64,000 nt of DNA from Casuarius casuarius (Eukaryota; Chordata; Aves; Casuariiformes; Casuariidae), in assembly GCA_003342895.1 (NCBI GenBank), contig PTFA01000042.1:5322640-5386639 (forward strand), given 5' to 3'. Under the pieces are notes generated by a model that searched no databases, had not been told where the DNA came from, and was given only the letters and a program-made list of their open reading frames with translations. The translations under genes and the position numbers were made by a program. Shown piece after piece: positions 27,246 to 45,689 of this stretch (its first letter is position 1; each line of letters opens with the position of its first letter).

Positions 27246-27246
27246 N
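27246..27246. other. Undetermined base (N) in the assembly
   Basis: This is the only N in the window. It sits ten bases after a 7-G run and marks a locally uncertain consensus. It matters because it shows this assembly has unresolved positions. Confidence 0.95.
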
Positions 27247-27710
27247 AAAACTTTTCAAGAAATTATTTTAGATGACAGTAAATTAGTGAGAATAACTTTT
27301 AACCTAGTATAAATCTTAAGCCATGAATCTCCTGCATGAGATTACTGTATAATTAACTGAAAGAAAACAGCATTGCTATACTTGGACAGCAGAGCAAGTG
27401 TCAGATTTTCCACAGAGAGCAGCCTTTAAGCAATCACATGCTATGTATCTATATACATATTTATATGTATATATACGTTGCAGAAGAAACTACATTTCTG
27501 ACACACTAGATTAAAAGCCACATGAGCATGATGCTTGGTCTTCAGCTTACACGGTGGTGTACACATAGAGGCTCTGAATATTAATCAGTCAAATAATTTC
27601 TCAGGTGATGCACTTCCATTTCCTCGCATGCGCCTTTGTATCTGCCATTTCGCCATGCACAGGGGTGCTGCTTTCAGACGCACTCTGGGGCTTCACGGGG
27701 GCCCGTGCTC

Positions 27711-27742
27711 CTGCGCTCGAGCGCAGAGGTCGAGCTCGACCT
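27711..27742. repeat. Two back-to-back perfect 16-bp palindromes
   Basis: CTGCGCTCGAGCGCAG at 27711-27726 and AGGTCGAGCTCGACCT at 27727-27742 are each identical to their own reverse complement, and they abut without a spacer. They share CTCGAG/GAGCTC-type cores. Seen directly in the sequence; function unknown. Confidence 0.9.
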
Positions 27743-27755
27743 TCTGGAAGGTTCG
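27741..27755. promoter_or_regulatory. Perfect three-unit heat-shock-element match
   Basis: CTTCT-GGAAG-GTTCG fits nTTCn-nGAAn-nTTCn, the inverted pentamer array bound by trimeric HSF1. About half of such windows would contain one such match by chance, so only the CpG-rich context makes it noteworthy. No promoter or transcript was recognised beside it. Confidence 0.3.
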
Positions 27756-30700
27756 GCAGAGACGCAGCAGTGATTCAGCTCTGGTCGCCAGGCTGCTCTC
27801 TCCCTGAATTACTAGGAAGCTCCAGGGAGCCTGGTGTTTAGTATGGAGGTGACTCTTCTTCTCAAAGCCTTTGCATTTAAAAATGGCTTTCTATAAATAG
27901 GATTGCTGGCTCACTCCTAAATCTTACTCCTTGCCTTCTAAGCAAAAATAGCTTAAATAGGAATGCTGGGAAGACCTGTTAATCTCTGCCATCCTGTCTG
28001 TCCGTCCATTTGCCTTTCTTCCTTTCCTCACATTGTATCATAACATCTGCTGCCCACTCCACTATGGTAAATATATATTGATGTACCCTAGTATCTCTTT
28101 TTCTGATGGGTAATCCAATACTCTAAAGAAAAAAATACTTATGAGATAATAAGAATTTATTACTGAATGGCTATATAAAAAGAAAAGCAATGGCAAAAAA
28201 GCCCACAGTGTTAACAAGTACCTGAGGAATCTGTGGCTTGTCCTTAAAGAGGTTCTCCTCAGTGCTCTAGAATATTGCCTGTGAAAGGCAAGACCCTTTC
28301 AATAAAATACCACCCATTTTCTATTACCCTATTTTAGAAAATATCAATTGTTCAATGAAATACATTGAAGAGACAGCGAGGTGAAACTGAGAAGATGGTG
28401 TTTCTTTGTAGAATAACAAAGTTGTTATGAAATCAAGGAAATCAGGATTTCAAACAGGTTAGAGGAGAAAAAGAAGTGCTGATTAAAAAGGATTGTGAAA
28501 TATCTCAAACGATATTGTGAAACAAGTAATTTAACTGCACACACCTACTCATTCACCCTGAAATAATTAAGTATTCTGATCTACAGACTTGTATTGCTTA
28601 AATTGATTTTGTTACTACTTTTACAGTTTCAATGACTGAAAAGAACCAATGTTTTCAAAAATCAAGTAATTGTACCTTGGAATAATTAGGATGAATACAA
28701 TATTTTTCTGCCCTCTCCAGCCTTTAAACAGAAGCTGGAATTAGTGTCTTTTCCCACCACAAATTTGAAGGAGCCTTAGACAAATATATTGAGAAATGGC
28801 ATATGCCAATTAAAATCAGTCTAAACGACTGGAATGTTCAAAGAGACCTTGAGACGAAACATATGTTAACTTGTTAGCTAGATCAAATTTTAAGGGGAAA
28901 GGAGAGAGCTCCACCTATCTATTTTTCTCCTTGATTCACAAATTCAACCCCCCTTCACAAAGATGTTTAGTTTCATAGGGCTTTTTTGCTTTTTTTCTCA
29001 TTGCCATTTGTATTGATTAGGTAATGGAGGTTATTCTTCCCACACAACCACCACCACTCCTGTGTATTGGTTAAAACACTCATCCAAGAAATCAAAGACA
29101 CAAAAGGCTGAGGTCCAAACCTGGCACAGCTACTGCTGTAATCAAGCGCCTTTCGCAGCTCATGTGCCCAAGGAACTTTCCGGATGAGCTTCTCATTAAA
29201 GCCCACAAGAGGTTCCCAAAGAATTCCATATATTGGTGTATTAAATGGCAAAAGTTTACTCAAGATTGAACAAAATTAAAACCAACTGCTAAGCTGTCCA
29301 GGATGCAGCATCACTGAAGAAACACCACTGAAATCAGCAAGAAAGAAAAAAGAACAGCACTGAAAGCTATTTAACAAGGTTTGGGGGTTTGTTCTTACTG
29401 TTTGTGGAAATCAACTTCACTTTAAACCATTACCAAACGTATCTTCTTTGTCACATGTCTGTTATTCAGTGCTTATGGGAAGAAAATGCAGCGTCCGCCA
29501 ATTGAGAAGTTGAGTGACCATACATACAAAAATGCAGACAAAACACCTTCTTCAGTCACCGTCTGTTCCCACTGTTTTTCAGAAATGTTGCCAGACTTGT
29601 GTGGTTTGCTGCCCACTAGTGTTGGGTGGCACCGGCTCACCATCATGCAGGAGATGCATCATGTTGCCCAATCCGGAGCGAGAAAACCACAGCCAGCCAG
29701 CCCCAAAGCCTAGGAATCGTTACACTCTGACACGTTACCCAGAGCACAAAAGGAGAAACATTTCTTTTAAAAATCAAAACAGAGATTTCCAGTGTAGTCT
29801 GACTTCCTACTTATAACAAATTTCCCTATTTGTCATTTGGTGATGAATTAATAGCTATTCATAGCTCAAGTAGCAACAGATAAAGACACGTCAGTTGTAG
29901 CCATCCACAAATATATACCAAAGCTAAATGCTGTCTGCATATGCAATAAAATTTCTAAGGCAAGGAATTTGGTTACACAAGTCATAATTCAACGTAAGGT
30001 ATGCATGTATTCAAGATGTTTCTACAAAGACTTTAGAGACGGTCTGCTCTTTTCCTTACATGCCTCGTCTCCAACATTGAGAGCCACCGTTTTCTTTGGG
30101 CAGTTTCATCGGCACCACAGACCGTTTCACTACCTATTCTCCACTCTAACCCCTGTTCTCAGTTCAGTGTGTTTCTTATTCTTCTTAGTCTTCTAATATG
30201 CTACTAAAACCCATGTTGATAGATACAGGGGGGAAACAGGCGGAAATGTGCACTCTGGACTTACAGATTCAAACAGGAAATCATTTTAATGGAAATTTAT
30301 TTTTAGCGTCATCTGTACTGCTTTGGGTGCCTCCTGGTGCTCCATTGATTTCAGGAGAACATCTGTGGACAACAGGCACACAAGAAACACAGCTGAACAG
30401 AAGCCTGGAAATGCGTTCAACGTACCTTTGCCAGCTAATCTAACTCTGAACTAAGTTTATCACAGTAATTACAACAAAAAGTCAGGATTTTGAAGCAGGT
30501 CATTCTCCCTTCCCAATTTCTCCTACCCTCTCCTTCCTCCCCCCGCCAATGAAATACACCCTTGCTGATTATGACCAGGCTACATCCGACTTTCTCCGTA
30601 AGCTCTGTTAGAGATGTGTGCTTGCTTCCAGAATACTTAGATATAGTAACACGGAAGGTAGTATAGTAGCCCTGAAGGTAACTCAAAGTATTGCTCAGGG

Positions 30701-32382: not shown

Positions 32383-33652
32383 TCTTAATGCTTGAACTTG
32401 TTGCAGTTGTCTTACTGCTAAAAGAAATGCAAAATTTTAAAGCTTCGGGTCTGGGGTTTTTCAGTCATTTTGCATTCTCTGGTACTCAGAATATGAAAAC
32501 ATTTTAAGGTAGCCCTAAATGCATACTTAAGATTCATCTCCTAATTTATGATCTATCTGGCAATTCACATTGGACTGGCCATGCCTGTCAATGTATTTTC
32601 TCATCCAGCGTATACTTAAGTAGATGTGAAGGAACCCTCATCCAGCATTCATTCCTCACCCTCTGTTTAGACGTTCAATTATTTGTATCTTCCAGGAAAA
32701 TCTTACACTTTCCCCTGTGTTTTTCTCTCATTTATTCAATACAGGAAACATTTTCCTATTCTACCTGCTTTGCCTATTTTGAAAATTGTGTGCTTAATCT
32801 TTCTGTTTTAACTGTCAGGATGTAATGCATTACAGGCAGTGCTATGTTCTCCAATCTGAGAAGAAGGAGGCAATATAATAGAACAGCTAGAATCACTCGC
32901 TACAGCATAATTTGTTTTCTATCCTTAAAACCACAACATTTATGTACATTTTAAGAAATGTAATTTAAACACACTTCCACATATGACATAGTTTTCAGTC
33001 ACATACATCTAAATGTTCCAAAATAAACCTTTATCCAGTATCAATAAAAACATCCAGAAAGTACAAAAAATGTTTCTCTATCAAAGAGTTTGCAGAATGA
33101 AGAGAAAAAAAGAGAGGGAAAAAAAAAGGTTCATCCTTATTATATCTCCATTCAAATCTCCCCTTCCTAACTTTGTAATTGACTGAAAGTCTTCAACATT
33201 TTTCAGATGATGTAATGCTTATCCGTGCATATTTTTACATAAATGAGCGAGAAAAAAATACATAGCTGGTACCTTTTAGAGGAACGATGAAAGAGAAGTA
33301 GTTTTAAAATACATTTTCTTAGAAAAAAATTTTTTTTTTGTTAAAGCACAGTTCAAATAAAACCCAAATGGTGAGAGGAAAAAAAGAATCCACATGCAAA
33401 AGCTCGAGGTAAAAGCCCTTGAAATTATCTCAGTGTACTCAGATGGGTTTACCCAGCACTTAGCAAAATTCTGTACTTTTCCAGCTTGGAAAGAAAGAAA
33501 AATCACCTCTACTGCTACCTCGTCAGGCACAGCCTTAACCTGAGCGAGGCAGATCCACGGTACCGCAGGTAGGCTGGGGGCTGCCCCTCGCCCCGGTGCT
33601 CGCCGCGCCGCCGCCGCCCCCCGCGCAAAAGCCCGCAGCCCCCTGCGCTCAC

Positions 33653-33695
33653 CATGCGAGATGCTCTGGAGCAGGGCGACGGCCAACATCCACAT
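33653..33695 (-). CDS. First coding exon of an unidentified gene, copy A
   Basis: On the minus strand an ATG at 33693-33695 begins MWMLAVALLQSISH, followed by one base of a split codon (G) and GT-GAGC at 33652-33647, a good splice donor (ATG|GTGAGC). The exon would hold 14 codons plus one base (phase 1). The hydrophobic run LAVALL looks like the start of a signal peptide or membrane anchor, so a secreted or membrane protein is likely, with the rest in exons outside this window or not recognised. The start has G at -3 but T at +4, a moderate Kozak context. The frame stays open far upstream without another ATG, and also reads into the intron, which GC-rich sequence does easily. I do not recognise the gene. 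The central position in a CpG island supports it; absence of a visible second exon is the main doubt. Confidence 0.5.
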
Positions 33696-34138
33696 GCCCC
33701 GGCTGCTGCCCGGCTCCCCGCGGCGGGCTGCGCTGCGCTGCGCTGCGCCGCGCTCCGCCGGCTCGCCCGCGCCCGCGCCGCCGCCGCCGCCGCCGCGGGG
33801 CTGGAGCCGCGGGCTGCGAGGGCAGAGCGCTCCGGCCCGCCGGCCGCTGCCTGCTCGGCGGCTGCGGGGCGCCTCGCCCTCACGGCCGGCGCTCGGCCCC
33901 GGCGGGAGCGCCCCGGCTCCGCGGGCACTGACGCCCCGGCGCTCCGGCGGCCGCGGCGCGGAAGGGAGGCGGCTGCTCGACGCCCAGGTGCGTCCCGGGC
34001 TCAGCGAGACGCCGGCGGGGCTGCGGCGGCGCGGCCACAGGTGCGGAAATCCCCCGGCGCCAGCACACGAGCATCCCTGGCGGGAGCCAGCCCCGAGCTG
34101 CGGGAAGCGGCTCCTCACACGCCGCCCTTCAGCCAGGC

Positions 34139-34160
34139 GGCGGGCGGGCGGGCGGGCAGG
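34139..34160 (+). repeat. (GGGC)n tract, G-quadruplex candidate
   Basis: GGG triplets at 34142, 34146, 34150 and 34154 are separated by single C, fitting the four-run G-quadruplex pattern on the plus strand and a C-rich partner on the gene's sense strand. It is present with the same unit number in copy B at 44828-44849. Confidence 0.7.
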
Positions 34161-34210
34161 CACATCTCGCCGCTCCTACGGCTCTAATCGCATTGATCCC
34201 GCTGTAACCT

Positions 34211-34235
34211 CCTCTGCCTCCGCGCACGGCAGAGG
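34211..34235. repeat. Inverted repeat, 8-bp arms, in the island
   Basis: CCTCTGCC at 34211-34218 and GGCAGAGG at 34228-34235 are perfect inverted arms with a 9-nt loop. It could form a hairpin in a 5' leader. It is duplicated in copy B. Confidence 0.7.
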
Positions 34236-35635
34236 CGAGCATTAACCCCAGCGCCAGGCGCAGCGCTCTGCAGTCTTAAAGCAGCAGAAAGTCTCCACAG
34301 CGGAAAAAGCCGAGACCGATAGAAGAACGCAGCCCGCGATCCTGCGTTTCGATAGTTGGGTGAACTGCGCCCGTTTGGCATCAGCCGAGTTGTATATGAC
34401 TAATGTGTTGACAAGTCGTGTGGGGGGACCGGAGGAGGGGGCCCTTCTGGAAGGTCACAGCCCAGATAGACAAGCGCATGAAACGATTGACTGGGATTCT
34501 CTGCAAAACAGAAAAATCTACCTTTCCCACTGCTTACGCAGCTCCAAATACAGTATTTGTGCTTTCAAGTGTTCCTTTTTTGCGGTAACCAATTTTTGCC
34601 TCCTGTAATGAAAGAGTAAATTGCAGTCTCTCTAACTAAAGGCAATTTCTGCATCTATTCTTTCTTTCGAGATGTGAAGGTTGGTCCAAAAAGAAAAAAA
34701 AAACACAGAAAAAGAAAAAATATTAAATGAAGACAGCCAAAAAAAATCAATATTATGAAATACATAACAGCATTAGGGCAACTCTGGATTTAAGCTATAA
34801 GATGAAAAGCAAACACAACAAAGCAATAAGGAATCTCAGCCTGCAGAATCCCACGTGGTACCAAACAGGATCACTTCACATCTGGGGGTCCTCACAGGAC
34901 AATACTATTTTACAAATTTGCTTTACAGAGCCAGAGGTGGTTGTCCTGCCAAGGCCCAGTCTCAGCCACTATAGCGAAACCCCAGAAAGGTTGTCCCTCA
35001 AAAAGACATTGGGATGAACATATGCAGAAAGCTCAGCCACACGGCCAAACAGTAAAGAAATTGCATCTGGAGATGGTTCTAAAGACACAGAGAACAGGCC
35101 ACAATGTGGTTAAGAAGCATCGTATAGGGCCCTTCACTCTAATTCTTAAGAAAACCAAAATCACAGCTGAAACACAGCAAATTCCGTCACGCAAGTGCTT
35201 AGTTCTCTGCATCACATTTTGGCTGGGATATCAACCAGAGGAGACTGAAGACCTCAAGTGATAGTAGGAGCAATGAGACTAATACTGCGCAGGGACTATT
35301 TGCTCATGGTTGCCCTTAAGAAAAAGAAGATGTGGGTAACTGGGGAAATTGTTCAGTGTAAAAGAATAGCTGATACTGCTAAAATTTGGGTGATTTCTTA
35401 ATTAAATGTACAAATGTCTTGAGAGAGAAAAAAAGAAGGAAGTTTGCTTTTATGAGAAGTGAAATTCTGTTAGAAACAACATTTTAATCTCTTTGGAAAA
35501 GAGCTGGTGACTAGCATAAACGTATAAATATTCCTTCAAGTGTATTTTGGAGAAGTTCATGCCCGATTTGTTCAGATAGCTCTTTTAGAATTGTCTTGTT
35601 TTCCATTTTACGCCCAATATGTAATGATGCAATGT

Positions 35636-35692
35636 TATATCATATATAACAAGTACGTGCATATATTTACACACATATATACATATAAATGT
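35636..35692. repeat. TA/CA-rich low-complexity patch
   Basis: Alternating ATAT and ACAC words, a degenerate dinucleotide repeat. Confidence 0.55.
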
Positions 35693-36429
35693 ATTCTTAT
35701 GCCTTTCTACAATCCATCAACGTCCTTTACTCATCTACACAGCTCTAGAAGCCCTTGCCAAATTTCAGTTTAATTTGAAAAAATTGTCACAGAAAGTAAG
35801 TTTCTATGTTTCAATTTACTCTTCTAGTCTGCTACTGCTGCTGTTTTAAGTAAGTCTTCAATTTGTTCTTCTGTGACACTGTAACAGAAGGAATCAACAT
35901 TCAGCAGGTATATAATCTTTTTGGCAACAGCCAGCCAACTAGTCAGCACAGCCATAGTTCTGAGATAGCTTTAAGGAAGGAAGGGGAAGAAGGCAGGCAC
36001 AATTTCACACAAAAAGAGGGCTCACTGGTTCTGCTGCTCATGGAATAACTAGACTGAAACCTAAATAAAACACTCTGTCAATATGGAGAAACCATATTAT
36101 AGGATAACTTTCACACAGAGTAAATGAAATTGGTCAGAATGCTATCTTTCAAGTCTGAAAAATCAAGAATGACCCAACTTCAACCACAAGCAATGGTAGT
36201 TAAGGTCATCAGCCAAGAAGAATCCTGTTTTATGCTTTCCTGTCTATTTGTTTTATTAAAATAGAATGTTCTCAATGGAGTGGCTGGATATATTTAATTC
36301 TTCCTAAAACAATTCGATCATTTTCCAGCAAGACATCCCAATTAGAATTTCCACATAATTATATCTTCTCTGGGGAAAAAAAAATCATGCTATGCAACTG
36401 CTAATGCAACAGCAATTAAGGATTTAAAA

Positions 36430-36468
36430 GCTTAAACTGGGCTTAAATTAAGTGCTTAAACTGGGTTT
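36430..36468. repeat. Short direct repeat of GCTTAAACTGGG
   Basis: GCTTAAACTGGG at about 36430 recurs about 24 bp later, with a GCTTAAATTAAG variant between them. Confidence 0.5.
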
Positions 36469-39400
36469 AGAGCTTGTGCTGGTTGACTGTATCAGGTTGT
36501 TCATCCTTACTTTCCAGTTTTCTGCAGCTGCCACACAGACCATGAGAAAGATCTCTGGAAGTCAACAGAGATACCACAATGGTATACACCAGCTGAAGAT
36601 CACCCTAAATGTATCTTAAACACTTAGTTTACCAGATTATAGTATACTGCAGAAAACACAAGCAGAGGACTGCAGTCTTGAGAAGTCACTAAGACCCTGA
36701 GGCATTTGAGCCAGCTGATTCCAGTGGAGCATTCAGAACATCAAAACACTTTCTGACAGTTCTGGCCACAAACATTCAAGATATGTTGTGTCCTGAGCCA
36801 CCACCATAAAGCATGCAGAGAAAAAACACTAGCACATTCAATCTGAGAACCATCAGCCCAGCTATCAGCTTTCTATAGAGCAAACATGGAAAGGGTTAAA
36901 CAGGAAGGTTTGCAAACTAATTTTGCAACATGTGCACATCATACTCTCATGTTTCATAAGAGCACAAACAACACATAACTACCACAGACCAATAAAGCTG
37001 ATAAAATTATTTTTTTTAAGAAGATATAATGACCTGTCTACAATAAGTCTGCACTGATTTGGGCCTCAAAAACAAAGGAATCTTCCAAATATTGAAACTG
37101 GGCTGGGAGCAGCAGTCATAATTGGTTCTATTCAGATCATAGGCTTTGGGCTTTAGGGAACTCAATCAAGTATCTGCCATTGAAGCATTCAACAATTCAA
37201 ACAGAGCCCTTCATTGTCATTCAGGATGCAAAAATCTCATTTGCAATTTCAGCTTTGAAAATGGTTTTAAAAGTACCTGAGGGAAGAAAGAATGGGAGGG
37301 AAGCAGAGAGGAAGTGGAGAGAAAGCATGGTGAGAGAGGAAGTTGTCAACAGTCAGAAGACCTGGGAAAAAAAAGAAAAAAAAAATCGAACATGCATGAA
37401 ACAAGCATCTAAATGACTGATCAGCCCAATTTCTGGAAAAAACTATTACCTTGGCTCAGTCATCTCTGCTTTTCTACATCATTTTGTGTCTCCCCATTAA
37501 TGACCCCTTTCCTTGACTTTAGTGCAGTACATTCTTTCACAGTAGTTACTAGAAAGAAAAATATTGGCTATTAGTTTGTAAACTAGGTAAAGATAATTGC
37601 TAGAGGCTATAACCTAAGTAAACTGACTTCAATTGTAAATTTAGTTATGATTTTCTTTTTAATAAGATTTATCAACCTGTTTTCAGCTCTATTGAAAAGG
37701 GAGTTGTAGTCCCAGTTAGCTTAAAAACAAAAACAGAGCAGGAAGCATACCACCCTGAGATGATAACAGTGAAGAAACAAAACTTGGAACATTTCAATAA
37801 GCGAGTATTTTTCCCTTTTTAATGCAAATGTGTGAAGAGGAGTCTCGCAAAGGATTTGCGAATACTTGGCTAAAATAAATACCAGTCCAAATCATTCAGA
37901 TCTCAACATTTTCCCAAATCAAATCTATTTTAACACAGAAGATTAGAAGTTTGAACAACTATTCCCTAAATTTTCAGGTAATCCAAAGCTTTGTCACTGT
38001 AGCCATAATGGAGGAAGACACACTCAATGGGTGGTAAAGGGACCGGGGTTACGAAGAGAAGAGAAGAGGAAGTGGGAAAGCTTTTCAGTAGTTTCTATCA
38101 GTTTGGAAATAGGAGAATCAAAAGCCTTGTGAGAACAGGTTTTTTTCACAAGACTTCATGCCTGATTTGATGCTGGAAAGATTCAGATAAATGTTGAATG
38201 CTTGTCAAAACCAATCGCTAAACCTTCTGATATTCACTTGCTACCACGCTTAACGCTTATATCTATAAGCTCGCAGTCAGCCATTTTTATCAGAACAAGC
38301 TGAATTTAAGCAGCAAAAAATAAATATTTTCCACAAGACACTTAAGAACTTAAAAGAAATTTCTAGTTCTGTAAGTACTGTTATGAGTGTGCTAGTTGAA
38401 ATGCCTTGTTTATTACTATGAAGCTAGGAATACTCAAGATGGGCAAATGAATTCTAAACATCTGCATGCAATTATTTGCAAGAGAGTCCACATTACTGAT
38501 GTCCTATCTTGGCTACCCTCCCGAGTATACGGGAATAAGTACAATTTACTTCCTAAGGTTCATCAGAAGCCGTTGACTACTCCACACTGATAATCCACAT
38601 CTCTCTCTTCTCTGCCCAGGTGAACATCTATACACACAGAAATGCAAAGACTTATTACATTTTACTTACATCCCTCTGCCAAATTGATTGAAATTGGCCA
38701 GCAGGTTCAAGAGTTAGAGAGAGAAGAACTGACAAAGACATTTCTTAGACAACCATGCTAGAGTAATGCATGCATTAGGCATGGAAAAATCCGGTCTGTG
38801 GGAAGGATTTCAAAACTGTGCATGATTCATGTTTTCTTGAGAGAGTACCAGATTTTTCTATTTAAAATACCAATTTTGAAACATAGGGCAATGATTTTTT
38901 TGCACTGCAGCCTTCCTTTTGCATTGCACCTTGCAAATGAACAAGAAAAGTAAGATTCTTGGCTGTTAAAATAATTGACAGTAAACTAAAATAGAAATAT
39001 TCCTTGTCACAGGGCAGAAACCAGAAGAAAATTTCGAAAACTTCGCATCTTCATACAGCCAAGTTCGTTCCTATGATAGAAAAGATGAGGGGAAAACACT
39101 TGTAAGATAGCTAAAGGGTGGAAACACAGCACACAAGATATTAGAAAACTGTCTCGGGTGAAAAACTGGGCTTGCAGAAGGGCAGAGAGGCTTGTGTTGG
39201 TGGTAATTGGTTCTAATAAGAGAAAGTAGTATAAGATGACATAGAGCAGATATCCATTTAAAAGTCTCCAAGTAAAGATGAACGGAACCCTTTGTATGTC
39301 TATGTATGTATAAAGATGAGACATTAAAGACCACAGCATGAAATGATTTTAATGCCAAGATGTGATGGAATGAATTACATATATTGAAATCATATCTATG

Positions 39401-39587
39401 CCATACAGTACATATCATGAGGTTGTAGCATGAAAAGGGTGAGTCAAGAGTACGATTACATTTCTAAATCCGACTTCCCATTATTTGGACTAAGAGACAA
39501 CCCATATAGCGGTCAGAGCCTTTAACAAGAGATCTAGGGCTACCCTGGGTTTGGATATGGGCATGTATACATACATAGCTGCTTCTT

Positions 39588-39608
39588 AAAAAAAAAAAAA
39601 AAAAAAAA
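39588..39608. repeat. A homopolymer, 21 nt
   Basis: An uninterrupted A run followed by TTTTG. It is the longest A run in the window. I cannot identify a retroelement body on its 5' side. Confidence 0.8.
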
Positions 39609-42600
39609 TTTTGAAGGAACTTTGCAGCCTCCAGGTTTTTCTGAAAAATGAATGACGAAGCTCTGCAGACCTCTTTTTAATAATTGTTACAGTGCAGTCC
39701 ATTAAGTACTGTAGTTATGTAGGAAGAAGGTTATGCCTGGTCCTGAGCCAAATTCTGCCCTCCATTACCTGCCTAGGATGCCACTGGCTTACACAGAATA
39801 GCAACCACATAAACAAAAGAAGAATTGAACTACTGGGAGCCAATACCCCCCCGGTCAGAGTCAGTCCACAGAAGGAAACAGGAAGAGCAGAGCTTGCCAT
39901 GCCTCAGGAAAGACAGGGTGTCCTCTGTATTCTTGTCTTCCTCATGTAGCTCCTACTTGCTTGAAAGCACTGCTGAAGAGGCAAGAACTCTGCTTGAAAA
40001 TTGCTGGAAACATATATGATCATGGCTCTTCCCAACCCTAGTGCAAATGTGGGGGCTGGGGGGGAGAAAAAACGCAGAGCAGCTGTGGAGCAAGGAGGCA
40101 GGGTTGCCAAGCAACAGCCTACTGGGGGGAGGGTGTTAAAAGGAGAAAAGGAAACATATAAATTGCATTTGCTCTTGTGGGGCAATGGTAGCCCTTCCAT
40201 CTGCTTTTCCTCCTGCTTCCATTGAGTTATTGGTATGGATTTCATGAGAGAATTTGGCCACAAATATTCCTTGCATCACAAGCTCCGGTCTGCTCCTAGA
40301 GAAGGTTACAGCGGGGAAAACCACGAGGAATACTTTCTTTGCCAACTTGTTGTCATGGGCAATGCAGTAAGAACAAAAGCAGTCTATCAGGTTCTCTGGA
40401 TGGTCTGCCCCAAGAATCAGGAGCACTAAGCAAAAGCAGACCTTCCTCATTCATGCATTTGCATGGGTGATGTTTCTTCTGGTATGCCATCATTTGTTTT
40501 AGATAGAAACATGCACAACATATGGGAGGTTTTTTTCCTTTGCACTATATAGACTTTCTATGTGACAAGTGGAGGAGCTCAGCCTCTGAAGATCTCTCTG
40601 CTTGTTGTTCTCATTTAAAGTTCTCATTCCCATTTTGTGACAAAGAGCCTTCTGTGATGTCATAAACATTTGAAAGCATGACATCATAGGAGGAGATCTT
40701 CAGGAAAGCTTTAGGCAAGAGGAATTCTGGTGAATGAGAACCACATAGAAGAGGGGACAGAAAATACAGAAGAAGAAAACCCTACCAACTAACAGGGCCA
40801 GACCACATAACCTGGAGACTTTCACAGAGCTTGACCTTAGGAATCTGAAGCCCCTCTCTGCAGGGACGATTTACTTGCTAAGCCAGCTCCTCCCAGCTGG
40901 GCATCATGCTACAGCTCTCTCACCAAATCTGGCCGCTGGTTTCAGTTCCAAAGCCTTGCAGTGCTCTGCCTCTTCCTTGGGGCAACTGGTTGTTTTCAGG
41001 TGCAACCACGGAAACTAAGTGGGATCTTTTGTTAACCCTTTCTTGCCTGTCCTCACTTTATACACATTATCACAGACCATCAAGAAAATGCATACTTACA
41101 CACCAAGGTACAATTACTTTTGACTCCATAATGCATTTTCTATAACCTATCATTTTTTGCATTTAAAGACAAAAACAACTGAAACCTAGAGAGGGAACTG
41201 CGTTTGCATTTACTTTTGCAATAAATTTCTTGGAAGCAAATTGCTTACAGGTAAGACAGCAGATAGACACTGTTTCTTCATACCTTTCAGTCATGAAGTC
41301 ATCCAAAGAAACACAGAAATTTATAAAGCAGACAACTCTCAGCCAGGTATCTAGGTCTCCCTGAATAGTCATAACAGACAATTTATCTCATCCTAAAGTG
41401 TGTGCCCAAATAGAATAGATAAATTGTACCGCAGAAGTCCCTGCTTACCTCCATTGACTATGCAGAGAAGCTAAAGTGACTAGCACCATGAGATGAGCAA
41501 TGTCCATGGCAGCCAAGTGTTGCTGAGTTTAATAGTCAGCAAGCCCACAGGAAGGTTTTGAAGAAGGCTAATGGAGATGCTCTACAAGAAGTTCTTCCGA
41601 AAAAGGCAAGGGCAAATAAGTACTTGTTTGAAAATCTGGCAAACAAGTGGAAATTGGTATCTTATACTGGTTGGAGATGGAAGGTCACTCTCTGCTTAAT
41701 GGGAGAAGTTTGGTAGGGCATTGGTATAAAAGACCTTGGCAGTTGAGTAAAGCAACATGCGACAAAGAAGCAATGGGACATCCTATACAGTGAAGGGTCT
41801 CACGACAAAATGAAAGGCTGGAAAAACACAACTGGAAGCAGTATGTTGGACCAGTATCAAAGTAGGAAAATCACAGTTGTCATGAGCAGAGAAACCACTG
41901 ACTTCAATCTCCACAAACAAGATGAGTTGGGTCCAACTCAGATTGGTGCTGTGGTACTTTTGGGTAGTTTTCTTTGGGTTTTGTTTTTTAAATACAGCAC
42001 CTGTCAAAAGTGGTCTCTTCCCCCCTTCCCCCACCTATTTTTAGATAATGATGGCTCATTTAAAAAGTCTACGTTTGCTAGCAGTCACCACAGTTGGGTT
42101 TTCTCTATGTTTAAGTGTTTACAAAGTGGCTGCTAGTATAAGTAAACAGCATAAATAGTGTCTTTGCAGGAAAGGAAAAGGACAGAGTCTGTCTACCTTG
42201 CCTGGGAAACACTGAGGTAGAGAGTAGGCTATAAATGCTATATCTTCGCTACTCTAGAGTAGTTCTTCCAAAACTACAGACAAAAAACAAAACAAAACAC
42301 CTGCAACCCCAAACCTCAAGATACAGAAACAGCATGCAGTCATGTGGTGGGGAGGACTTAAGTGTTTGACATAAGGCACAGAATGCCAATAGCTAGTTCT
42401 CCCGTTCTCCTATTTTGCAGAGCAAAAAGGGATGCCTGTTTTCTACATCCTATTTTCTACATGGTCATCATGTCCTCATTGATTCATCTCTTCCCTAAGC
42501 ATACTATCCATCTCCCCCCACCTTATATTCCTCTCACACAGAATTCCCTTCTTGCTTCTGTCACTTCTGTCGTATGTATCTGGATCCTGTCTGTTTCTAG

Positions 42601-43745
42601 TATCGCTTTCTTTGAAATGATATGACCAGCACACAATAGGCTTTAAGCATTTTTTGCTGAATGTTAAACTACAAGTTTTAAAAAGATACACCTGCCTTAC
42701 ATAACACCTCCTGTCTTTGTTACACAGCAGTGTGAGAAAATAACTTCTTACTGTTTTGGTTTCCCTGCTTTGGCCTGAGACATAGATGCAAAAAGGAAAG
42801 TTATGCTCAATTTGTGACAAGTCAACAAATTCATGAAGAAGATTTTCCATCATAATAGGACCAGAGTTTATTTTAAAAATTAAACCAAAGGAAAAGCTAG
42901 GTGCTGACAGAAGAAAGTCTTCCTCAGTGGCAACATATGCATCAATGTTCCAGATATGATATGATACTAAAAAAAAAACTGATTTCACTTCAGTGGATGC
43001 TGTATTGTTTTCCTGGTCTGAGAGTACCACTTCAGTTACTGTTGCTAAAGTGTTTCAAGACTGATTCACTGAATTTCACTAAATTTCATATGTAGATATA
43101 AGGTTAAGGCTGATGAAAAAGTTATCTGATATAACACTTCCTCGCTGGAAAAAGCTGAATTCAGCATATTTGAAACATTCTGCATTACAGTGCAAAATTT
43201 GAACTGCAGTTTCTTGACTAATGTATTCAAATTATAATGAAAACAGTTGTAATGGTCTTCTAATTCTCAAACAACAATCTGATTGGTTTTTTTTCATGTG
43301 AAGTTTCAACTTTCTCCTTTGTCAGTTCAGAAAAAGAAAAGGAGAAAGGAAAATTTTAGCAGATTAGTATTTGTCATTTAATTGAAATTCTGTATTGCAA
43401 ATAATTTTAATTAATGTGTGAAGGTCTTCACCTAGCACAGCAAAGACAGCTTTTCTAAGTATTAATTTCTGAATTTAGATCTCCTTCTGGACACACGTAA
43501 AAAGAAGTTTGGTGGTCTCACTTCCCTCCTCAACAGATAATTATCAGACCACTACACACTCAAATCTCTGTGCTCAGCAGAGGTTTGCAAAGTGATCAGC
43601 AGCTGTTTCAGGTCATGACTGACAGGTATTGGCAAAGCTTTGCAGGAAAATGGCAGAATGCCTACATGCATATGTCCAGCTTAAGTGTTATAAACTCTTA
43701 ATATAAATAAGGATCAGATTCAGTCAAACAAGCTTTACAGTACAT

Positions 43746-43755
43746 GGGGGGGGGG
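43746..43755. repeat. G homopolymer, 10 nt
   Basis: An uninterrupted G run in AT-rich surroundings, about 500 bp left of copy B. Confidence 0.75.
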
Positions 43756-44131
43756 TAGAAAGAGCTCTCATTTCTCTTCAGAAGTTAATATTAAGAGACG
43801 AGTTCTTAAGATGTTAATACTGCTAAATCACGTAACAGATATTTCCTCCATGCCTTGGAAGTTTGCCCTAGTCATTTCTTGTGCCCAATATACTTCCATG
43901 AATACAATAAACATTTTGAAAACCTGTTTCTAAATTAGTTCTAGGGAGACATATTTATGTAAGAATTAATGGGAAATTGTTACATATAAGCCAGTAGATA
44001 TAACACAGTTATTACATATAACCTAGCAAAGCACAGGTCAGCACAAACAGTTTTAAACAAAGCAGTTCTCAGTACCACATAGATCGTCTTTCTTCCCTAT
44101 AAAGAATAACAAATGGCATGGAGTTAGCTAT

Positions 44132-44283
44132 TTCTTCTTTTTCGGAAGAACTTGTTCTTTTTGTCAAATTGGGTGGGGAGGAAAGACCCCGTGGCGCCCC
44201 TCCCCCAGCAGGTTATTCCGATGTTAGCGGAAATATTGCTAAGTAAGGGGCTGCCCCTCGGCGGGGCGAGCTCAGCTCGCCCC
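44132..44283. other. Fold-back-rich left junction of copy B
   Basis: This short stretch holds several small inverted repeats: TTCTTC/GAAGAA and GAAC-tt-GTTC near 44132-44160, TTCCG/CGGAA near 44216-44233, GGGG-ctg-CCCC at 44247-44257, GCCCC/GGGGC at 44253-44267, and a perfect GGGGCGAGCT-c-AGCTCGCCCC at 44263-44283. The last lies across a 19-nt insertion (44261-44279) that is absent from copy A. The local style is unlike the rest of the window and could be a breakpoint scar or a badly assembled gap edge. Confidence 0.6.
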
Positions 44284-44341
44284 GGTGCTCGCCGCGCCGC
44301 CGCCGCCCCCCGCGCAAAAGCCCGCAGCCCCCTGCGCTCAC

Positions 44342-44384
44342 CATGCGAGATGCTCTGGAGCAGGGCGACGGCCAACATCCACAT
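44342..44384 (-). CDS. Duplicate first coding exon, copy B
   Basis: Identical to the exon at 33653-33695, with the same ATG, the 14-codon hydrophobic start and the same GT donor. If the duplication is real and its promoter works, this exon could splice to the same downstream exons because it lies upstream on the minus strand, giving the same protein from a second promoter. Splicing across copy A would also be possible. The intron sequence beyond the match differs from that of copy A. If the duplication is an assembly error, this exon does not exist in the genome. Confidence 0.3.
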
Positions 44385-44803
44385 GCCCCGGCTGCTGCCC
44401 GGCTCCCCGCGGCGGGCTGCGCTGCGCTGCGCTGCGCCGCGCTCCGCCGGCTCGCCCGCGCCCGCGCCGCCGCCGCCGCCGCCGCGGGGCTGGAGCCGCG
44501 GGCTGCGAGGGCAGAGCGCTCCGGCCCGCCGGCCGCTGCCTGCTCGGCGGCTGCGGGGCGCCTCGCCCTCACGGCCGGCGCTCGGCCCCGGCGGGAGCGC
44601 CCCGGCTCCGCGGGCACTGACGCCCCGGCGCTCCGGCGGCCGCGGCGCGGAAGGGAGGCGGCTGCTCGACGCCCAGGTGCGTCCCGGGCTCAGCGAGACG
44701 CCGGCGGGGCTGCGGCGGCGCGGCCACAGGTGCGGAAATCCCCCGGCGCCAGCACACGAGCATCCCTGGCGGGAGCCAGCCCCGAGCTGCGGGAAGCGGC
44801 TCC

Positions 44804-44931
44804 TCACACGCCGCCCTTCAGCCAGGCGGCGGGCGGGCGGGCGGGCAGGCACATCTCGCCGCTCCTACGGCTCTAATCGCATTGATCCCGCTGTAACCTC
44901 CTCTGCCTCCGCGCACGGCAGAGGCGAGCAT
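44804..44931 (-). other. Upstream short ORFs, copy B
   Basis: The same upstream ATG frames as in copy A occur at +10689: 44931-44818, 44882-44865 and 44854-44804, and another lies at 44763-44569. They carry the same uncertainty about the start of transcription. Confidence 0.3.
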
Positions 44932-44987
44932 TAACCCCAGCGCCAGGCGCAGCGCTCTGCAGTCTTAAAGCAGCAGAAAGTCTCCAC

Positions 44988-45060
44988 CGTGGGCGAAAAA
45001 GCAAGATCAAAAAAAATTTTTGAACCCTTTTTATGGCACTATATAAAGGTGTTATCAGTA
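44988..45060. other. Right junction of copy B, AT-rich with TATA-like words
   Basis: After GTCTCCAC the two copies share only loosely similar bases (a GCGAAAAAGC-like word), then diverge. TCAAAAA (45007-45013) and TTTTTGA (45017-45023) form a perfect inverted repeat. Read on the minus strand, CCATAAAAAGGG at 45036-45025 and the TATATA core at 45040-45047 are TATA-like and lie upstream of copy B's exon, but about 650 bases from its ATG. No promoter activity can be inferred from that alone. Confidence 0.4.
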
Positions 45061-45689
45061 CCAACTGTACGTGTGCAGGGAGTGCACGCTCACTGTTAGC
45101 AATGCATTCTAGATGGCACTCTGGAGGGACCACTGGGAGAAAGCATTAAACTGACTTATTTGTAGCACAGTATTTACTTGCTTTCAAGGGCGTTTAATCA
45201 GTCTTACAAAATTGTATTTTTAAAGGAAGTATTTGACTGTTGACCTTTTCTACTTGCAATATCCTTGCTGAGCTGTAAATCTTTTAGCGAACAGAATAGC
45301 TTAATTTCCCACTTTAGAGTAAATGACAGAATGTGTTACAGCTCTCCAAAATGTCATATTTTGTCCTAGACAGGTGACAGTGCCTGTCTGGCTTGAGATC
45401 TACACCACAGATCCTATTCCCAAGCCCTGCAGCCATTTAGCTCATTAGCCTCTTGGGACAACTGAAACATCTTCTCTTTGGGAGCTCCCAGCTGAGCAGT
45501 AGTTTCAGGTTAAGGGATAGTAAAAGTCGCTTTCCCTAGAACTGAATTGTAGCCGCAATGGCAGCAAAGCAGAAATAGGCCTTTAAGATGAACTCAGAAT
45601 GGTCTTAGGTCTTGGGAACATCATGATATGCAGAAGAGGCCATATGAAAGAATACCTGAAGCATTTATATAATCAGCTGAGTAAGAAAC

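Follow-up and report, generated by a model that had tools for sequence, protein, structure and literature searches.

Introduction

False duplications in vertebrate assemblies, as described by Ko et al. (2022, PMC9516828) for three species of which two were birds, place a near-identical segment twice within one stretch of a hard-to-sequence region, and incorrect gap filling is reported there as sometimes joining them. Published signs by which they are recognised are low read depth, discordant reads, and a gap between the copies, whether in the assembly or in depth. What earlier vertebrate assemblies lack, those of birds included, is described as coming disproportionately from GC-rich promoters and 5' exons (PMC9516821), and gap closers are described as often putting in inaccurate sequence (PMC8848313). 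A second group of described systems is biological: class 2 templated sequence insertion polymorphisms carry neither a target-site duplication nor poly-A and leave their donor in place (PMC5110952), and in mouse mutants the fragments freed by two meiotic SPO11 cuts enter other hotspots, at sizes of 15-967 bp in Atm-/- (PMC12918824, a preprint). The present analysis concerns a 64,000-nucleotide (nt) stretch of the Casuarius casuarius genome (assembly GCA_003342895.1, contig PTFA01000042.1, positions 5,322,640 to 5,386,639 of the forward strand; hereafter the window, with coordinates counted from its first base), in which a CpG-island segment of about 0.7 kb, with a possible promoter and first exon, occurs twice at a distance of 10.7 kb. 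The second occurrence, copy B, is read here as a false duplication made in assembly, at a probability of roughly 0.5.

This locus resembles the published false duplications in that a near-identical segment is found twice in one stretch and in a region that is hard to sequence, but differs from the cases described in PMC9516828 in having no gap run between the copies, in its short length, and in a 19-nt difference at one edge. As in the class 2 insertions of PMC5110952, there is no target-site duplication or poly-A and the donor has been kept; however, the donor here lies 10.7 kb off and consists of a promoter-like CpG island with a possible first exon, and there is no clear microhomology. With the SPO11 double-cut fragments of PMC12918824 the segment shares its size, the 741 bp of copy B falling within the Atm-/- range, and its donor is the kind of site, a CpG island, at which bird recombination is enriched, although those insertions come from mutant mice and are mostly much shorter than the segment seen here.

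Extent and identity of the duplicated segment

The two copies and the sequence by which they differ are as follows.

33577-34298, minus strand: copy A, 722 bp, with 76 bp of intron 1, the splice donor, a possible first coding exon, and the 603 bp that precede the possible start
44247-44987, minus strand: copy B, 741 bp, including 19 nt lacking in copy A
44257-44275, no strand: the 19 nt present only in copy B, comprising the left arm, the loop and the first right-arm bases of a hairpin; they begin with one unit of a direct repeat CTCG (44257-44260), and the other unit follows them (44276-44279)

Positions 33591-34298 and 44280-44987, which a first-pass annotation had judged identical by eye in the same orientation, are identical at 708 of 708 bases. 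The match grows by four bases to the left and by none to the right, giving an exact repeat of 712 bp (33587-34298 and 44276-44987, offset 10,689), and this is the only exact repeat of at least 24 nt, direct or inverted, in the window. In a gapped alignment, ten further bases match on the left (33577-33586 and 44247-44256), behind the 19 nt unique to copy B. The description of the copy as perfect is thus accurate across the 712 bp, but not at the left edge, where the gapped alignment places the 19-nt difference. When GC-rich island sequence was drawn at random 20,000 times, a match of 10 nt within 41 offsets turned up in 0.0044 of the draws. In an anchored alignment that charges the 19-nt gap, the left edge scored 2, and between 0.36 and 0.61 of random pairs scored as high. 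The left edge does not stand out in this test, so the case for the left extension is made by the exact 10-mer together with its position.

The segment has a GC content of 0.78, with 111 CpG in 708 bp, and nearly coincides with the GC-rich core of the island: among windows of the size of the segment that overlap 33700-34000, 73 of 1,022 (722 bp) and 60 of 1,026 (727 bp) were as GC-rich. The repeats inside it are short, the exact runs measuring 16, 18, 20 and 33 nt, and the longest array reported by Tandem Repeats Finder is 32 nt with a 5-base unit, so that the argument from fast-mutating microsatellites is not borne out; because these repeats are short, their identity says little about age. The finding of no substitutions in 712 bp sets a 95% upper bound of 0.42% on divergence which, at an assumed substitution rate of 2e-9 per site and year, would imply that the duplication, if real, is younger than about 1 million years (95% bound).

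At the left edge, the hairpin of copy B has two inverted arms of 10 bases each, separated by a single base (44263-44272 with 44274-44283). Folded alone, 44257-44290 is markedly stable (z -4.84, with none of 200 shuffles as stable), while the longer stretch 44236-44310 folds less extremely (z -2.24, six of 200 shuffles as stable), and the copy A region matching the hairpin has no such stability (z +1.64). The simplest reading would be that the hairpin-bearing sequence is the older and that a deletion between the CTCG repeats removed 19 nt from copy A, whether in the genome or in the consensus, though the difference may also be due to an error in copy B. Fold-back copying, which is known from yeast (PMC11724301), was considered as a source of the 19 nt and rejected, given that the loop bases are lacking in copy A; for the same reason a deletion in copy A between the CTCG repeats would be simpler. 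A literature search on polymerase deletions at hairpins returned nothing useful. Since copy B carries 19 nt that copy A lacks, it was not simply copied from the copy A sequence seen today.

Edges and flanks

Three of the adjoining stretches bear on the question of which copy stands in its native place.

34299-34434, no strand: CpG-rich shoulder of copy A, not found in copy B; its 13 CpG in 136 bp exceed the count of every background window
44120-44246, no strand: left flank of copy B, slightly CpG-enriched and unlike the copy A flank (CpG counted over 44120-44255)
44988-45123, no strand: right flank of copy B; 4 CpG in 136 bp, with GAAAAAGC common to the start of the copy A right flank

The three flanks other than the right flank of copy A hold 4 to 5 CpG per 136 bp, which was reached by 1.8 to 3.4% of background windows. 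Copy A would accordingly be more likely than copy B to be the native one, chiefly because of the CpG shoulder on its right side. The earlier contrast of a native copy A with a sharply cut copy B therefore stands as regards the right shoulder of A, but is too strong for the left side of B, which is not fully abrupt (5 CpG per 136 bp, a number that 1.8% of background windows reach). Counted over 200 bp, the flanks hold 6 CpG (left of B), 15 (right of A), 5 (left of A) and 4 (right of B). These counts have some bearing on a model in which a circle of 10.7 kb integrated by way of the common segment, or some other rearrangement used it, so that the segment came to lie as a direct repeat at either end; the left flank of B and the right flank of A would then be the two original flanks of the island. 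Such an event would produce the same geometry, and these two are the most CpG-rich flanks of their respective sides; however, the difference on the left side amounts to one CpG (6 versus 5), there is no evidence for a circle, and this explanation is very improbable.

Beyond the repeat, the flanks had been described as unrelated, and a comparison of 700 bp on either side agrees, the flanks being no more alike than random pairs (their scores were reached by 0.41 of about 144 pairs on the left and 0.17 on the right). A search of these 700-bp flanks for diverged homology found none, which counts against an older promoter duplication held identical by gene conversion. A weak likeness that such an older duplication could have left does occur just past, and not at, the right edge, where GAAAAAGC is common to both copies (P 0.006, and 0.02-0.03 in an anchored test), but on balance gene conversion is extremely improbable. 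Tandem or segmental duplication was rejected, as the flanking unit is not duplicated: there is no other exact repeat of at least 24 nt and the flanks are unrelated.

At the junctions of copy B, no word of 5 to 12 bases is common to 44226-44262 and 44980-45020, as a target-site duplication would require, and the best imperfect target-site duplication around copy B is at chance level (P 0.71). No poly-A adjoins the edges of copy B, the nearest runs, of five and eight A, starting 9 and 22 bases past the right edge, and there is no clear microhomology at its junctions. A class 1 templated insertion or processed copy was rejected, there being neither a target-site duplication of at least 5 bp nor poly-A. 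The segment is also no spliced complementary DNA of the proposed exon, since it contains the start of the intron and upstream sequence. A long terminal repeat (LTR) element, in which direct repeats of 722-741 bp would surround a 10-kb body, agrees with the locus in geometry only, and is contradicted by ends other than TG...CA, by the missing target-site duplication and by the lack of element proteins, no Pfam family having scored above cutoff in the 17 open frames of at least 75 amino acids inside the body. The repeat is moreover a CpG island with a splice donor, and an LTR retrotransposon is scarcely credible here.

Two minor features lie near these edges. An inverted repeat, GGGGAGG at 44175 and CCTCCCC at 44199, lies a short way to the left of copy B (44175-44205) and may be a site prone to breakage or to sequencing difficulty; folding of 44150-44246 gives nothing out of the ordinary (z -0.83). 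The heptamer GCGGAAA is found both at 44227-44233, towards the end of the left flank of copy B, and at 34300-34306, shortly after the right flank of copy A begins.

Origin of the second copy

In the proposed false duplication, the island would exist once, at copy A, and its GC-rich core would also have served to bridge a break near 44.25 kb. The fill would have come from reads or from a haplotype carrying the 19-nt hairpin that is lacking in copy A, and the hairpin indel would in that case be a natural allelic or sequencing difference. The near-identical segment, its GC content, its edges and the hairpin difference are observed; we infer both the break at the site of copy B and the wrong fill. 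What favours this explanation is the near match between the segment and the GC-rich core of the island; the lack of any difference in 712 bp, together with a copy B that has no target-site duplication or adjoining poly-A, also speaks for it. Three points weigh on the other side. There is no gap run between the copies, the sole N in the window being one base at 27246, outside the interval; copy B, with its 19-nt difference, is not a plain paste of the copy A sequence; and an error of this kind is unlikely if the contig is built from accurate long reads. An artefact of mate-pair circularisation was also considered, and could account for the left junction only. The single N at 27246 comes shortly after a run of seven G, and may be either a closed-up gap or an ambiguous call, which could hint at the assembly method.

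The principal alternative is a real and recent insertion, in which an island piece of 722-741 bp entered a double-strand break 10.7 kb away through end joining or template switching, copy A having later lost 19 nt at the hairpin or copy B having come from another allele. The edges of the copied segment nearly coincide with the GC-rich core, which argues against a captured fragment, and the absence of substitutions in 712 bp would require the event to fall within the last 1 million years or so at the assumed rate of 2e-9. On the other hand, the lack of a target-site duplication and of adjoining poly-A, the retained donor and the unrelated flanks are together the marks of class 2 templated insertions, the copies differ by an apparent deletion between direct repeats at a hairpin, and no gap run separates them. 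The absence of clear junction microhomology may count against insertion. A likely source for the fragment would be two meiotic cuts within one hotspot, since recombination in birds is enriched at CpG islands: in the zebra finch, crossovers are reported as 1.36-fold and non-crossovers as 1.54-fold enriched there (PMC12047795), which would make a bird CpG island a natural donor. However, these enrichments are modest, and the median inserts given in the mouse work are only 95 bp in Atm-/- and 67 bp in Mre11-/- (PMC12918824, a preprint). Template switching at germline breaks, as described in PMC7615360, would serve as well. Taken together, a real insertion by whichever route falls somewhat short of an even chance. 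The fuller version of it, in which a promoter-island fragment was freed and then caught at a second break, with meiotic breaks falling on CpG islands, and in which one gene would possess two proximal promoters and two first exons, each pair nearly identical, is unlikely.

The two alternatives named in the first-pass annotation, a recent event and an assembly error, thus remain the two leading explanations, and the sequence alone does not decide between them, leaving the two nearly level. If the false duplication is correct, copy B is no feature of the genome, and the locus becomes a warning that false copies of a CpG-island promoter can arise in sequence without gaps and so escape filters based on gaps. 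If copy B is real, a promoter and first exon were duplicated recently, leaving the gene with a nearly identical pair of each, and the mechanism would predict more such duplications in birds; only in that case would the gene have two usable promoters. Were the capture of a fragment at a second break the correct account, genomes without PRDM9 would make new promoters in this way, and more often than genomes with PRDM9. The pattern can be counted across assemblies made with different types of sequencing as a CpG-island core repeated within about 20 kb, with unrelated flanks and no gap, and equal rates of the pattern in accurate long-read assemblies would favour a real mechanism over false duplication.

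Possible first exon and gene content

The coding potential of the segment lies on the minus strand and is carried by both copies.

33653-33695, minus strand: possible first coding exon part of copy A, with ATG at 33695, reading MWMLAVALLQSISH plus one base; donor GTGAGC from 33652
44342-44384, minus strand: possible first coding exon part of copy B, with ATG at 44384; donor from 44341

The possible coding stretch is 43 nt long and may read as signal-peptide-like, and its donor scored 9.4 in a splice-and-codon scan. The start codon is a guess, as the frame stays open for 483 nt further upstream. That the copy carries the exon candidate and its GTGAGC donor agrees with what had been proposed, but the coding status of the exon is less firm. 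The scan of both strands gave no convincing exon 2 among the top-ranking candidates without overlap, at most 28 for each strand (of 257 and 192), and no protein relative of the open frame through copy B scored at an E value of 0.01 or better among 7,993 candidates; for these reasons the exon is treated as a putative first coding exon. A search of the PDB with a 24-amino-acid query gave no match.

Across 24 open frames, including the 17 in the 10-kb body, no Pfam match exceeded its family cutoff. No RNA family reached its gathering score and no tRNA genes were found in the sequence searched, and an avian CR1-like end motif was not found. As long shots, a 20-nt pattern from the exon was compared with viral contigs and the segment with phage records, in both cases with no exact match. 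Two weak Pfam matches, below cutoff, were to DUF1980 (E 0.043) and Wza_C (E 0.069). Elsewhere in the window, CpG is less strongly concentrated at several further spots, located at 27551-27900 and near 2051, 3701, 7451, 21251 and 24651, where 200 bp hold 7 or more CpG; none has an exact copy of at least 24 nt in the window.
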